This document shows, in pieces, positions 47,095 to 51,608 of a stretch of DNA of 64,000 nucleotides (its first letter is position 1; each line of letters opens with the position of its first letter). Location of the stretch: NCBI RefSeq assembly GCF_029094545.1, contig NZ_CP117835.1, positions 1,530,001 through 1,594,000 on the forward strand, in the 5' to 3' direction. The position numbers were made by a program, and so were the translations under genes. Under the pieces are notes generated by a model that was given only the letters and a program-made list of their open reading frames with translations, searched no databases and was not told where the DNA came from. Source of the stretch: Alkalihalophilus pseudofirmus. Lineage in GTDB: Bacteria > Bacillota > Bacilli > Bacillales > Bacillaceae_D.

Positions 47095-48933
47095 ATGACA
47101 ATTAAACGAAATGACCCATGTGTATGCGGCAGCGGCAAGAAGTACAAGAAATGCTGCATGAATAAAGAAACGGTAAAGGTAGTCGCTGAACAACGGCGTG
47201 AGCACTATATTGCGAAACGTAAACAAGTGATTGAAAAATTACGTATGTATGTGAAAGAAACATTTACGGTAAAAGAACGTTTTATGCTTGAAAAAGAATT
47301 TGATGAACGTTCAAACCATGTTGTTCCAAAGGAATTAAAAGCTTCATTTACAGAGCTGTGGCTGTTGTTTTTCAACAAAAGTTCAAAAGGCCGGTTAATC
47401 ACGGCATTTTTAGAAGAACGCAAGGATCTTCTTACTGCTGAAGAATATGAGATGATCCAAAAATGGAGCACGTTAACACCGCGTCTTGTTCAAGCAGTTG
47501 ATCGTAAAGAAAGCAAAGTCACGTTTAAAGATCGTTTAAATGACGATGTATATACAATGACGCTGACAGATGAGGGTGAGCGATCTTTTGCCCCTTGGTA
47601 TGGAACATTTAGTCTAATCGAAGATCTTAATCAAGAATCTATTTTTTACGGTGTGAGAATGTTTGAAGGACCGTTAAATCTTGAAGAAGCAGCTACTTAT
47701 GTAAAAGAGAGAGCAAAACAGACAAAAGAAACAGTTGACACGTTGTTAGTGAATGAATTTCCAGAAATATTGTCTGCCTTCATTAAAGGTCAGCAAAATG
47801 AAGACTCTAATAAAATGAAAATTGTCAAACAATTCAAGGCACAATGGAAAGTCGAAAATGAGAATGAACTTATAACATACCTAGAAAAACAGCCTTCTAT
47901 TTATTTAGAGAACTGGTCAGAGAAGGAAAAAATGGCTAGTTTCATTCTTGACTGGTATCGTTATACAGACTCAGAAATGTCTGGTGATGTTCTGACGACT
48001 GAAGTAAAAAGCACGCTTAAAGTCCAGGATAACATCGTAGAAGTGGAAGCATTCGATTCTGATTCAATGAACGAGGTCAAAAATAGCTTAAATGGACTTA
48101 CTTCTGTCTCGTTTATGAATGAGGGCACGAAAGAATGGGAGATTCCATATCATGCCGAAATGAAAAATATGCTTGTGCAAATGAATCCAGAACTTCCAAA
48201 GCATTTTTCGCTTTTTGCTCAAAATAATATTGAAGCTCAGCTTGATAAGCCATATTCAACTGAAGAAAAACGTACGATAAAAGAACTTGTTCGTGCTGAT
48301 GAAATTGAAAAAGTAGAAGGATGGCTGCGTCAATCTGAATACAATGTATACATCGCTCAAAAAAATAAACTTGGACAAGTAGAAGTAACAGCAGACTATA
48401 ACACGCTTAGAGAAGAGCTGAATCTGCCTATGTCCCCATTTGTAACGGGTGGTCGTAAGAGGGTTACAAAGCATGAACATATCCCAACAGATTTAGATCA
48501 GTCTGAAGCTGCGGACGGGGCAAAAGCCAAACAAGAAGGTCAAGCTTTGGATGATGCTTATGATGAGAAAACAGCGTTAGATCTCTATCTTGAGCTAGAA
48601 ACGTTCAAAGAAGAAAAGACGAACGGAAAGTCTGATGCGACAGTACGAAAGTATTCAAATAGTGTAGAGATCTTTGCTGGCTTATTGAATGCAATGGATA
48701 TAAAAACGTGGAGTGAGCTTACTAAAGAAAAATGGGAAGCTCTATTATGTTCTAAATTAAAAGAAACCTATTCTACTTTGAGCAAAACGCAGAGTAAGGA
48801 CTTTGTCAGCGTCCTAAGAGCTTTTGTTAAATGGCAGGATAAAAAAGAGGGCACGTCTGTTATTGAATGGGTAACACCATTATTAAAAGAAGTCGAATCC
48901 ATGTATGTGAAACAGCCGGCAGCAGCTTACTAA
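47095..48933 (+). CDS. SEC-C motif protein with an integrase-like C-terminal helical domain
   Basis: 612 residues. The N-terminus is a SEC-C zinc knuckle (NDPCVCGSGKKYKKCC, cysteines 9, 11, 20, 21). The large middle part is not recognised. The last 110 residues (ALDLYLELETFKEEKTNGKSDATVRKYSNSVEIFAGLL...TWSELTKEKWEALL...FVSVLRAFVKWQ) resemble the SAM-like core-binding domain of tyrosine recombinases, but no catalytic domain follows. AGGAGAG precedes the ATG. It is a single gene with a hairpin after it. Confidence 0.7.
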   Translation: MTIKRNDPCVCGSGKKYKKCCMNKETVKVVAEQRREHYIAKRKQVIEKLRMYVKETFTVKERFMLEKEFDERSNHVVPKELKASFTELWLLFFNKSSKGRLITAFLEERKDLLTAEEYEMIQKWSTLTPRLVQAVDRKESKVTFKDRLNDDVYTMTLTDEGERSFAPWYGTFSLIEDLNQESIFYGVRMFEGPLNLEEAATYVKERAKQTKETVDTLLVNEFPEILSAFIKGQQNEDSNKMKIVKQFKAQWKVENENELITYLEKQPSIYLENWSEKEKMASFILDWYRYTDSEMSGDVLTTEVKSTLKVQDNIVEVEAFDSDSMNEVKNSLNGLTSVSFMNEGTKEWEIPYHAEMKNMLVQMNPELPKHFSLFAQNNIEAQLDKPYSTEEKRTIKELVRADEIEKVEGWLRQSEYNVYIAQKNKLGQVEVTADYNTLREELNLPMSPFVTGGRKRVTKHEHIPTDLDQSEAADGAKAKQEGQALDDAYDEKTALDLYLELETFKEEKTNGKSDATVRKYSNSVEIFAGLLNAMDIKTWSELTKEKWEALLCSKLKETYSTLSKTQSKDFVSVLRAFVKWQDKKEGTSVIEWVTPLLKEVESMYVKQPAAAY

Positions 48934-49211: not shown

Positions 49212-49416
49212 TCTTTACTTCCCTCCTGTCGTACTCTAAATGGAATAACTTTATCATTATATAGCAAGCCGCATAGCTTGTCATATGTTTTTTGCTGGAT
49301 TGAAAGAGGGAATTTACAGGTTTTGTCTCTTCTTTTAAAGGTAATAGGTACTCATGCAGATCAAATGTGATAAGCAGGCTACATATATCATGAGTCTATC
49401 CGAGGAGGAGTGTTAG

Positions 49417-50109
49417 ATGGAGCAGTTTATGGAAACGGTCAAAGAAGTCGTCTTTGCTGTGCTTCCTATTACCTTAGTTATTGTCATTTTGCAGTTTACT
49501 CTTATATGGCTGCCGCCTGAGGTTTTTATACAGTTTCTTATCGGCGTAGTGATGGTCAGTGTCGGTTTGATTCTTTTTTTAGTTGGAGTGCATGTAGGAC
49601 TTCTTCCGGTAGGAGAAATGATCGGGTCCATTTTGCCTAAATCAAAAAAGATATGGCCGATTATTACAGTCGGCTTTATTTTGGGGTTTGTCGTCACGGT
49701 GGCAGAACCTGATGTTCGTGTCCTTGCGCAGCAAATAGATAATGTCTCAGGAGGGGAGATCTCTCAGATGGTGCTGATTTCTTCGGTAGCCTTAGGGGTA
49801 GGCATATTTGTTGCTCTTGCTATGGCAAGAATTATTTTTAAGATTCGGTTGAAGTGGCTGTTATTAGGCGGATACAGTGTCGTTTTTCTCCTAGCAGCGA
49901 TAACCCCTAATACATTTATCCCCATCTCTTTTGATGCTGGCGGGGTGACTACAGGGCCAATGACGGTTCCATTCATCTTAGCCCTTGGAGTAGGTGTGGC
50001 CTCTGTTCTTAGAAGCAAGTCTTCATCAAGCGACAGTTTTGGTCTTGTTGCTCTGGCATCAATTGGTCCAATCATTTCGGTGCAGATTTTAGGGGTGATT
50101 TACGGGTGA
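49417..50109 (+). CDS. DUF1538 membrane protein, first half-size copy
   Basis: 230 residues and about seven membrane helices. Conserved segments are VGVHVGLLPVGEMIGSIL, VAEPDVRVLAQQIDNVSGGEI and SFDAGGVTTGPMTVPFILALGVGVASV. They match the DUF1538 repeat, which in many bacteria occurs twice in one polypeptide. A transporter or channel role is likely from the architecture but unproven. Its TGA overlaps the GTG of the next gene (GTGA). AGGAGGAG precedes its ATG. Confidence 0.82.
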   Translation: MEQFMETVKEVVFAVLPITLVIVILQFTLIWLPPEVFIQFLIGVVMVSVGLILFLVGVHVGLLPVGEMIGSILPKSKKIWPIITVGFILGFVVTVAEPDVRVLAQQIDNVSGGEISQMVLISSVALGVGIFVALAMARIIFKIRLKWLLLGGYSVVFLLAAITPNTFIPISFDAGGVTTGPMTVPFILALGVGVASVLRSKSSSSDSFGLVALASIGPIISVQILGVIYG

Positions 50110-50840
50110 ATATTACAATCTTTGAAGGCTTTACAGAGGTGTTGGTAGAAGTATTTTTCGCCCTATTGCCGCTGCTCGTATTCTTTTTAGTTTTTCAGTT
50201 TTTCTTTTTAAAACTTGAAAAAGAAAAGATCATAAATATTGGAAAGGGAATGGTTTTATCCTTTTTTGGTTTAGCCTTATTCTTGCAAGGGGTTCATGTT
50301 GGCTTTTTTCCTGCAGGAGAGTTGATGGGAGAAGTGCTTGGCGGCCTTTCTTACAACTGGATTTTAATTCCAATCGGGTTTGTTTTAGGATTTGTAGCAA
50401 CCTTTGCTGAACCTGCTGTACGAATTTTAAATGAGCAAGTAGAAAAGGTTTCAGGTGGCTATATTTCAGAACGTGTGATGCTCTACACCCTATCTATTGG
50501 TGTCGGTGTGTCAATTGCTTTATCGATGCTTAGAATTCTTGTAGGTTTCTCGTTATGGTACTACATCATTCCAGGCTATATCTTGGCCGTTATTTTATTG
50601 TTTTTATCAAGTAATACGTTCTCTGCCATTGCATTTGATTCAGGCGGAGTGGCAACTGGACCGATGACGGTTACGTTTATTTTAGCGATTGCGGTTGGGG
50701 TTGCGTCAGTTACAGAAGGCCGAGACCCGCTCATGGACGGCTTTGGGATGATCGCTTTAGTTGCCCTAGCCCCTATTCTGTCCGTTCTTATATTAGGAGT
50801 ATTATTTGAGAGGCAGGGGAGGGAGTCGAATGAAACTTAG
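50106..50840 (+). CDS. DUF1538 membrane protein, second half-size copy
   Basis: 244 residues and about seven membrane helices. It is a paralogue of the upstream gene, with the same three signatures in the same order: QGVHVGFFPAGELMGEVL, FAEPAVRILNEQVEKVSGGYI and AFDSGGVATGPMTVTFILAIAVGVASV. The overlapping stop/start suggests equal, coupled translation and therefore a heterodimer corresponding to the two-repeat proteins. It overlaps the PII-like gene by 11 bases. Confidence 0.82.
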   Translation: MNITIFEGFTEVLVEVFFALLPLLVFFLVFQFFFLKLEKEKIINIGKGMVLSFFGLALFLQGVHVGFFPAGELMGEVLGGLSYNWILIPIGFVLGFVATFAEPAVRILNEQVEKVSGGYISERVMLYTLSIGVGVSIALSMLRILVGFSLWYYIIPGYILAVILLFLSSNTFSAIAFDSGGVATGPMTVTFILAIAVGVASVTEGRDPLMDGFGMIALVALAPILSVLILGVLFERQGRESNET

Positions 50841-51552
50841 ACGTGAGCACCAGCTATTTGTAAGCATTGTAAAGAAACATCAGGCAAAAAAACTGGTGTT
50901 GGCAGCGAAAAAAGCAGGTGCAGAAGGGGCAACGATCCTATATGCCAAAGGCAGCGGAATACGTGAGAAAAAAACGTTTTTAGGTATACCGGTTCACTAT
51001 GAAAAAGAGGTCATTCTAACAATAGCGAAAAAAAATGTCATGGAGCAAATTATTTACCATGTAACGTTGGCAGGCAACCTGAATCAAAGCGGAAAGGGTA
51101 TAGGCTTTGTTTTGGATTTAAAACAATTAACCGGGATTGCCCATTTATTAGAAGATCCAGCAGATGCAGAAGATACTTTAATAGAGGAGGATGAGGGTGT
51201 AATGCCAAAAGAAGACATTCCTTTTGATTTGATTGTAACAATTGTGAAAAAAGGAGATGCAGGTAAAGTTATTGACTCCTCATTAGAAGCTGGAGCAGAA
51301 GGGGGCACAGTACTCGGAGGCCGTGGTTCAGGTATACATGAAAAAGCATCATTTTTAAATATACCGATCGAACCAGAAAAGGAAGTGGTTCTGACGTTAA
51401 TACACAGAAAGAAAACAAAAGAAGTACTTCATGCCATTGAATTAGGAGTTGGGCTTAATCAATCGGGTAAGGGGATCGCTTTTGTACTAGATGTTGACCG
51501 TGTTGTAGGAATTAACCATGTCATAGACGAATTGAAACAAATAGATGAATAA
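50830..51552 (+). CDS. tandem PII-like regulator (two GlnB-fold domains)
   Basis: 240 residues with two PII-like domains, about 8-105 and 135-232. Each has the T-loop-like GSGIxEKxxFLxIPxxxEKEVxLT region and the C-terminal ending NQSGKGIxFVLDxxxxxGI. PII domains bind nucleotides or other small signals and gate membrane transporters. The fused pair mirrors the paired DUF1538 proteins upstream. ATG 50830 with GGGGAGGGAG is chosen over 50806. A terminator closes the operon. Confidence 0.82.
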   Translation: MKLRREHQLFVSIVKKHQAKKLVLAAKKAGAEGATILYAKGSGIREKKTFLGIPVHYEKEVILTIAKKNVMEQIIYHVTLAGNLNQSGKGIGFVLDLKQLTGIAHLLEDPADAEDTLIEEDEGVMPKEDIPFDLIVTIVKKGDAGKVIDSSLEAGAEGGTVLGGRGSGIHEKASFLNIPIEPEKEVVLTLIHRKKTKEVLHAIELGVGLNQSGKGIAFVLDVDRVVGINHVIDELKQIDE

Positions 51553-51573
51553 AAAGAGGAAACGATTTGATAG

Positions 51574-51608
51574 AAACGAGAGCAAAAAACCTGCTCTCGT
51601 TTCTTTTG
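51574..51608. terminator. terminator after the DUF1538/PII operon
   Basis: GAAACGAGAGCA and TGCTCTCGTTTC form a stem followed by TTTT; it can act on both strands. Confidence 0.9.

Follow-up and report, generated by a model that had tools for sequence, protein, structure and literature searches.

The 64,000-nucleotide (nt) stretch of the Alkalihalophilus pseudofirmus genome analysed here (NCBI RefSeq assembly GCF_029094545.1, contig NZ_CP117835.1, positions 1,530,001 to 1,594,000; hereafter the window) carries, at window positions 49417-51552, three overlapping open reading frames (ORFs) on the forward strand: a umpA-like gene, a umpB-like gene, and a tandem PII gene (Table 1). The two membrane subunits, 46% identical to each other, match DUF1538 (PF07556) nearly end to end (267.9 and 263.9 bits, gathering score 22.6), and ORF 3 matches PII (PF00543) in two stretches (47.9 bits against a threshold of 25, E = 1.8e-12). 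The tetranucleotide GTGA at 50106-50109 holds both the umpA stop and the umpB GTG start, and the PII ATG lies inside the end of umpB, an 11-nt overlap (50830-50840) that takes in the umpB stop TAG (50838-50840). A first-pass annotation had described just this arrangement of two paralogous DUF1538 genes and a double-PII gene, and the profile matches bear it out. For the PII gene, the ATG at 50830 has better Shine-Dalgarno-like spacing than the TTG at 50806 of the program ORF list. The region has 8 terminator-like sites against 2.6 expected in shuffles, and the one 3' of the operon has the longest stem. An upstream RNA element was considered and rejected, the only two Rfam matches being at chance level (E = 0.52 and 0.55).

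Table 1. Features of the umpA-umpB-PII operon in window coordinates (K/R, lysine and arginine; aa, amino acids)
Feature	Position	Strand	Basis
Shine-Dalgarno-like GAGGAGGA ahead of umpA	49402..49409	+	sequence
umpA-like, DUF1538 subunit A, 230 aa	49417..50109	+	PF07556 E 6.4e-80; NF041627 E 1.6e-36; predicted N-in/C-out, K/R bias +8
E97 codon in AEP, predicted discontinuous-helix break	49705..49707	+	E in 239/241 proteins; break in homologous L061 model
D173 codon in FDAGGVTTGP, second predicted discontinuous helix	49933..49935	+	D in 241/241 proteins; L061 model
umpB-like, DUF1538 subunit B, 244 aa, GTG start	50106..50840	+	PF07556 E 1.1e-78; predicted N-out/C-in, K/R bias -4
Purine-rich Shine-Dalgarno-like stretch for PII gene, within umpB	50816..50825	+	sequence
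Tandem PII protein, 240 aa	50830..51552	+	PF00543 two stretches; AlphaFold2 model; Foldseek PII matches
PII domain N, diverged copy, limits approximate	50842..51150	+	tree; model
PII domain C, conserved copy, tree side of single-PII loci, limits approximate	51205..51531	+	tree; alignments; model
Intrinsic-terminator-like hairpin 3' of operon, 13-pair stem then T-rich tail	51572..51604	+	hairpin scan

The DUF1538 family is not without a characterised member. In Halomonas zhaodongensis, UmpA and UmpB jointly confer Na+, Li+, and alkali tolerance on the antiporter-deficient Escherichia coli strain KNabc, mediate Na+/H+, Li+/H+, and K+/H+ exchange in everted vesicles (K0.5 for Na+ 0.26 mM), and co-immunoprecipitate as a heterodimer, according to the available parts of that report (PMC5484666). 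The first-pass description of the system as uncharacterised and of no established function is thus mistaken at the level of the family, though Halomonas UmpAB is a distant relative. On the UmpA and UmpB equivalog models (NF041627/NF041628, cut-offs 490/500 bits), the window pair scores far under both cut-offs (125.8 and 120.6 for A, 120.9 and 116.2 for B), so that by profile score it belongs to the same Pfam family as UmpAB and not to the same equivalog; the nearest named UmpA match is from Alkalihalobacterium elongatum (79% identity). As far as the parts of the literature available to us go, DUF1538 homologues are cited as a likely salt adaptation in two papers on cable bacteria, and DUF1538 is among the top 20 Pfam contributors to growth-pH prediction in a machine-learning study, the direction of the effect not being given in the section used.

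DUF1538 and the PII protein travel together. In a sample of 299 genomes from the host's phylum, DUF1538 is present in 101, the PII subtype (called with profile A6 at E<=1e-9) in 102, and both in 100 (Fisher p = 1.9e-76, with genomes treated as independent, though related). In the sole DUF1538-only genome there is a remnant whose best match contains six stops, and the two PII-only genomes have, respectively, a weak match (best E 1.2e-10) and a 51-residue match. We then tallied 109 loci, consisting of the 29 best-scoring of the 101 genomes (L010-L038) and the best 80 of at least 574 confirmed matches (L039-L118, selected solely for similarity to UmpA); one sequence was counted in each set (as L020 and as L111), L018/L019 and L069/L075 are near-copies, and the tally leans toward relatives of the window because the loci are best-scoring matches. 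PII lies directly downstream of DUF1538 in 103 of the 109, the distance between UmpB frame and PII domain having a median of 2 nt (range -73 to 159). With this adjacency and co-occurrence in 100 of 101 DUF1538 genomes, chance neighbourhood is rejected and the DUF1538-PII link is very tight; the case that the first-pass annotation named as refuting its proposal, DUF1538 genes never accompanied by PII genes, is contradicted by the same survey. A recurrent third operon gene was not seen in L039-L118, where the neighbouring gene shares the strand of the operon in 35/76 cases upstream and 32/68 downstream; judged by their starts, the first 30 downstream proteins are diverse, and as no domain search of the neighbours was made, there may be a rarer partner.

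The stoichiometry is less uniform than the link itself. Two PII domains are present in 93 of the 103 PII-bearing loci, 76 of them with a tandem protein behind two DUF1538 domains, 16 with two PII genes, and one (L013) with a single DUF1538 gene in view. The suggestion that paired domains on each side form a matched set therefore stands where each family is represented by two domains in view, as at 92 of 109 loci (93 if L013 is counted), and does not extend to DUF1538 pairs with one PII (10/109) or to 15 further loci with a single-copy DUF1538 gene and one PII gene each (L164-L174, L183, L186, L191, and L192). Because of these two classes, the 2:2 arrangement is one state among several. PII is missing from six of the 109 loci, of which L054, L067, L088, and L102 end at a contig edge and L050 and L055, taken up below, do not.

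The same association is met outside the host's phylum. In the phylum of Pseudodesulfovibrio, 8 of the 198 genomes sampled, counting the centre, have DUF1538; a clear PII gene adjoins it in five, a 369-381 aa neighbour in two, and a contig end in one. Three pairs from this phylum are Halomonas-like (332-360 bits to UmpA and 316-325 to UmpB, below the cut-offs and far above the window pair), each has one PII gene, and they served as stand-ins for Halomonas, the Gammaproteobacteria lying outside the genome search. On plasmids, where six of nine matching records were examined, all five annotated loci have DUF1538 followed by a "P-II family nitrogen regulator", including those of the alphaproteobacteria Methylocystis and Chelativorans, and frames in the sixth, unannotated locus have the same order. 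In one genome (G514), one frame of 626 aa encodes DUF1538, DUF1538, and PII in succession, and a tandem PII gene stands apart next to it; the PII part of this fusion scores 70 bits on our PII profile and has no Pfam match at E<=0.01. Together with the co-occurrence and adjacency counts, this one natural UmpA-UmpB-PII fusion upholds the first-pass proposal of a transporter coupled to PII.

Several individual loci vary the theme. At L134:331-1437 and L135:290-1432, in two genomes of the Pseudodesulfovibrio phylum, DUF1538 proteins of 706-713 aa are followed by proteins of 369-381 aa in which three segments weakly resemble PII. The cassette of Pseudodesulfovibrio pelocollis (L062:3668-8498) is flanked by genes for a Na+/H+ exchanger and a TrkA-type channel. 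Two umpA-umpB-PII cassettes stand in direct tandem at L178:970-4676 (G137), and the DUF1538 coordinates of G103 look alike. A 294-aa frame at L175:346-1227 (G254) runs from a DUF1538 end into two PII domains; DUF1538 pieces stand in other frames beside it, and the locus is either a fusion or a broken gene. In Syntrophomonadaceae (L063:5690-6601, L065:2191-3138, and L094:5690-6685), UmpB has a long acidic C-terminal tail ahead of the PII gene. On a conjugative Chelativorans plasmid (L146:3513-4851), the first DUF1538 gene is annotated as 90 aa, truncated or mis-annotated, while UmpB and PII look full length.

The charge distribution of the membrane proteins bears on how they are inserted. For 108 pairs with both halves of at least 200 aa, we scored alternating loops for K and R, using corresponding alignment columns and excluding the tails; fused proteins were cut mid-way. 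Mean bias is +3.5 for UmpA and -2.6 for UmpB in separate pairs (n=55) and +6.7 for half A and -3.8 for half B in fused pairs (n=53); A exceeds B in every pair (55/55 and 53/53, 108/108 in all), and the window pair stands at +8 and -4. The sign is as expected in all 53 fused pairs and in 53/55 A and 51/55 B subunits of separate pairs. Single-copy proteins have a mean bias of -0.07 (range -1 to 2, n=15) and differ from both A (p=9.6e-8) and B (p=4.5e-7), kinship uncorrected; these loci were picked individually and are no random sample (nine come from genomes with one listed match, two from genomes with three, and four were added; 14 are under 90% identity), and for one of them the genome (G298) is a single contig with just one DUF1538 match. 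An AlphaFold2 model of the fused L061 protein has, as read, about seven membrane helices per half (predicted local distance difference test [pLDDT] 89.8, predicted template modelling score [pTM] 0.88), and the linkers of fused halves are short (12-28 aa) with a mean hydropathy of -0.06, which makes an extra helix unlikely. Neutral singles, oppositely charged pairs, and fusions are described in a mini-review, in the part available, as the pattern of dual-topology families such as DUF606 (PMC3962082). By its charge pattern DUF1538 behaves as such a family, with both paired-opposite and near-zero single bias represented. The opposite A and B biases, near-zero singles, and short linkers together suggest that the transporter is probably an antiparallel dimer, in which UmpA would be N-in/C-out and UmpB N-out/C-in; a cytosolic UmpB C-terminus would match the site of the PII fusion in G514.

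A parallel heterodimer, with UmpA and UmpB in the same orientation and charge differences arising from other constraints, has some points in its favour, and these are the first of several that weigh against the reading we develop below. Among separate pairs, A bias is zero or negative in 2/55 and B bias zero or positive in 4/55, and L130-L133 follow the trend more weakly (A mean +2.5, B mean -0.5, range -2 to 1), the B bias being especially weak. The available text on Halomonas UmpAB (PMC5484666) predicts seven segments per subunit and contains no word starting with "topolog", "antiparallel", or "inverted". We consider the parallel arrangement quite unlikely in view of the A over B bias at matching columns in every pair, the near-zero bias of single copies, and the odd number of helices (in the PMC5484666 prediction and in the L061 model as read) combined with short, non-hydrophobic fused linkers.

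Two acidic residues stand out in the membrane domain. The first-pass annotation had pointed to the motifs AEPxVRVL and DxGGVxTGPMT as substrate-path residues; across aligned DUF1538 proteins this fits E97 of AEP (239/241) and D173 (241/241), which are kept in all groups compared, and does not fit the R of AEPxVRVL, which is variable. The L061 model shows a first helix interrupted at AEP and a second just past the D of FDxGGVTTGP, and on this modelled geometry E97 and D173 are likely the best candidates for cation/proton handling. A Foldseek search, the only one made with the fused DUF1538 model, returned no PDB match at E<=0.001 and so found no known transporter fold. The near-copy L084 was excluded from the structure alignments and the short L099 from that of PII.

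The PII partner is of the PII fold and departs from canonical PII in its details. An AlphaFold2 model of the window protein consists of two ferredoxin-like PII domains (pLDDT 85.0, pTM 0.81); in a PDB fold search with this model a designed cage protein ranks first and the matches from rank 2 are mostly PII or GlnK, and a search by sequence found no solved relative (best E 0.067). In a 108-row PII tree, built on few columns and with several long branches, mostly of N domains, a branch with support 90/88 separates the N domains from the C domains, single PIIs, and canonical PII. The canonical ligand and modification residues of GlnK are Gln39, Tyr51, Lys58, Lys90, Arg101, and Arg103. Among 92 C domains, Gln39, Tyr51, and Arg101 are kept in none, Lys90 in 1, Arg103 in 32, and Lys58 in 90. 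Given the roles these residues are understood to play, their replacement excludes, on sequence grounds, classical uridylylation at a Tyr51-type site and makes classical ATP/2-oxoglutarate binding by this subtype doubtful; with the gene context, it also makes the public "nitrogen regulator" label of these proteins doubtful.

We think it fairly probable that the three genes encode one machine, an UmpAB-type monovalent cation/proton antiporter controlled by a dedicated PII-fold protein. Antiport and heterodimer formation were demonstrated for the distant relative Halomonas UmpAB, in the available parts of PMC5484666, and would be carried over to the window pair by analogy. In such a machine UmpA and UmpB, with about seven helices each, would be inserted oppositely to form an antiparallel heterodimer, and E97 and D173, near the two discontinuous-helix breaks of each subunit, would handle the cation and proton. 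The PII pair would sit in the cytosol, on the side of the UmpB C-terminus, and binding of a small ligand to PII could make it bind or release the cytosolic face and so change transport. PII-transporter pairs act by direct binding in the parts of the literature available to us (PMC10710835, PMC8352866).

Distance from the characterised system is a further difficulty for a gated antiporter, since the window subunits score 116-126 bits on the UmpA/UmpB models, far from Halomonas UmpAB, and are 29-37% identical to four pairs from the Pseudodesulfovibrio phylum (three of them Halomonas-like), and the antiport activity of the family comes from a single paper (PMC5484666). PII might therefore gate the membrane pair while the physiological substrate is another ion or a small metabolite, Na+/H+ antiport not being the main activity of window-type proteins. 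The same group's E. coli KNabc screen gave antiport for several unrelated families, going by the available material, and the PII targets covered in the accessible part of a 2023 review are ammonium, nitrate, urea, and bicarbonate transporters (PMC10710835); gut metagenome-assembled genomes are common among the best 80 matches, and the lack of a PDB match for the predicted fold, noted above, points the same way. Another substrate nevertheless seems somewhat unlikely to us in the light of the everted-vesicle antiport with its sub-millimolar K0.5 for Na+ and the salt and alkali phenotypes (PMC5484666, available parts), the rank of DUF1538 among growth-pH-predicting families in the section of the study used, the retention of E97 and D173 in all groups compared, and the P. 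pelocollis locus with its Na+/H+ exchanger and TrkA-type channel neighbours.

The role of PII can be questioned as well. Halomonas UmpAB works in E. coli without its own PII being supplied (PMC5484666, in the parts available), and in Metabacillus lacus (L050) and Sutcliffiella deserti (L055) umpAB is present while the PII subtype was not found genome-wide, with a query that had no in-run positive control and matched 102/299 genomes elsewhere; transport can thus proceed without PII. The T-loop, the plugging element in GlnK and SbtB, is also about five residues shorter in this subtype (a span of about 17 residues against 22 in E. coli GlnK, MAFFT alignment), and docking would accordingly have to differ from that of GlnK and SbtB. 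PII could then be an assembly or stability factor, or a reporter of cation or pH state to another target, which the shortened T-loop and the replaced GlnK residues favour. This is unlikely in our estimation: PII occurs in nature fused to the C-terminus of UmpB, co-occurrence is near one-to-one, and the PII-transporter pairs in the accessible part of the review (PMC10710835) act through direct binding, all of which speaks for a gate. A PII that is dispensable for transport also fits the role of a regulator in the gated antiporter that we favour.

The range of states suggests how that gated antiporter may have arisen, and we offer the following history tentatively, as a possibility somewhat short of probable. 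The ancestral DUF1538 unit may have been one membrane gene and one PII gene, with PII as a homo-oligomer gating an antiparallel homodimer of the membrane protein; both sides would then have been duplicated, diverged, and fused into a 2:2 machine in which an asymmetric PII pair reads the ligand and controls cation/proton exchange. In a 42-row tree the Halomonas-like group and the window group each have their own A/B split, which suggests parallel duplications, and the starred branches of this tree force three A/B label changes.

The cassette occurs twice in the 4.2-Mb host genome; the other copy (L009 4082-6218) is diverged, keeps the order, and has a gene of its own for each of the two PII domains. 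PF00543 finds four PII domains in the genome, all at the two umpAB loci (G000 C1:1580839-1581534 and C1:326117-326792). A classical GlnK was looked for and rejected as a component of this host, which has an ammonium transporter gene, amtB, yet no PII outside the umpAB loci by PF00543. Upstream of the operon, the gene at 47095-48933 starts with what we take to be a SEC-C-like motif (NDPCVCGSGKKYKKCC).

PII proteins are among the most widespread nitrogen, carbon, and energy sensors of prokaryotes. With a PII coupled to a monovalent cation/proton antiporter, pH and salt homeostasis would be linked to a metabolic signal in roughly one third of the sampled genomes of the phylum (101/299). If the proposal is right, the operon would encode an ion antiporter gated by PII, and the PII system would here act on an antiparallel kind of partner; the accessible part of the 2023 review notes that PII use seems restricted to transporters able to work as trimers (PMC10710835). 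The series of single, paired, and fused DUF1538 proteins would also be a rich natural case for the evolution of inverted-repeat transporters. PII-controlled transport and UmpAB antiport are already known separately, and what is new, within the open literature, is their coupling and the antiparallel architecture. DUF1538 joined with PII or with dual topology was not found in titles and abstracts of that literature, which mostly excludes subscription papers and preprints, and its DUF1538 papers hold no PII wording, which for one of them means the form "P-II"; the one "pii" is part of a peptide motif.

The known systems each share part of this arrangement. Halomonas zhaodongensis UmpAB has the same Pfam family, overlapping paired genes, and homologous subunits, with the heterodimer demonstrated for the Halomonas pair (PMC5484666, available parts), and its relatives L130-L132 keep the E and D of both window motifs; the window proteins differ in lying far below the Halomonas equivalog cut-offs and in having an A/B split of their own in the tree, and the available text of the UmpAB paper does not contain "PII" (PMC5484666). 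GlnK-AmtB is likewise a PII-fold protein encoded beside a membrane transporter, and the GlnK-AmtB complex 2ns1 is among the fold matches. AmtB, however, is of another family than DUF1538 and forms a trimer, as far as the sources available describe it, in contrast to the predicted antiparallel DUF1538 dimer, and the window PII differs from GlnK in its two tandem domains, shorter T-loop, and replaced residues. SbtB-SbtA, as described in the available part of its report (PMC8352866), is similar in being an operon of a sodium-linked transporter and a PII-like regulator, but SbtA is a trimer with two inverted repeats per chain and SbtB docks through its T-loop; the window PII has a T-loop shorter than that of GlnK and, having no cysteine, lacks the CGPxGC motif of some SbtBs. 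PII-NG, encoded beside CzcABC, is another PII-family protein clustered with a cation/proton antiporter, though CzcABC is a metal efflux system and PII-NG a proteobacterial clade (PMC7726332, in part), set beside the window PII here by description only. For the membrane subunits the closest parallel is with the DUF606 and small multidrug resistance families, from which DUF1538 differs in its roughly seven helices and its PII partner, and with which it shares the pattern of single genes of near-zero bias, pairs of opposite bias, and two-domain fusions (PMC3962082, available part).

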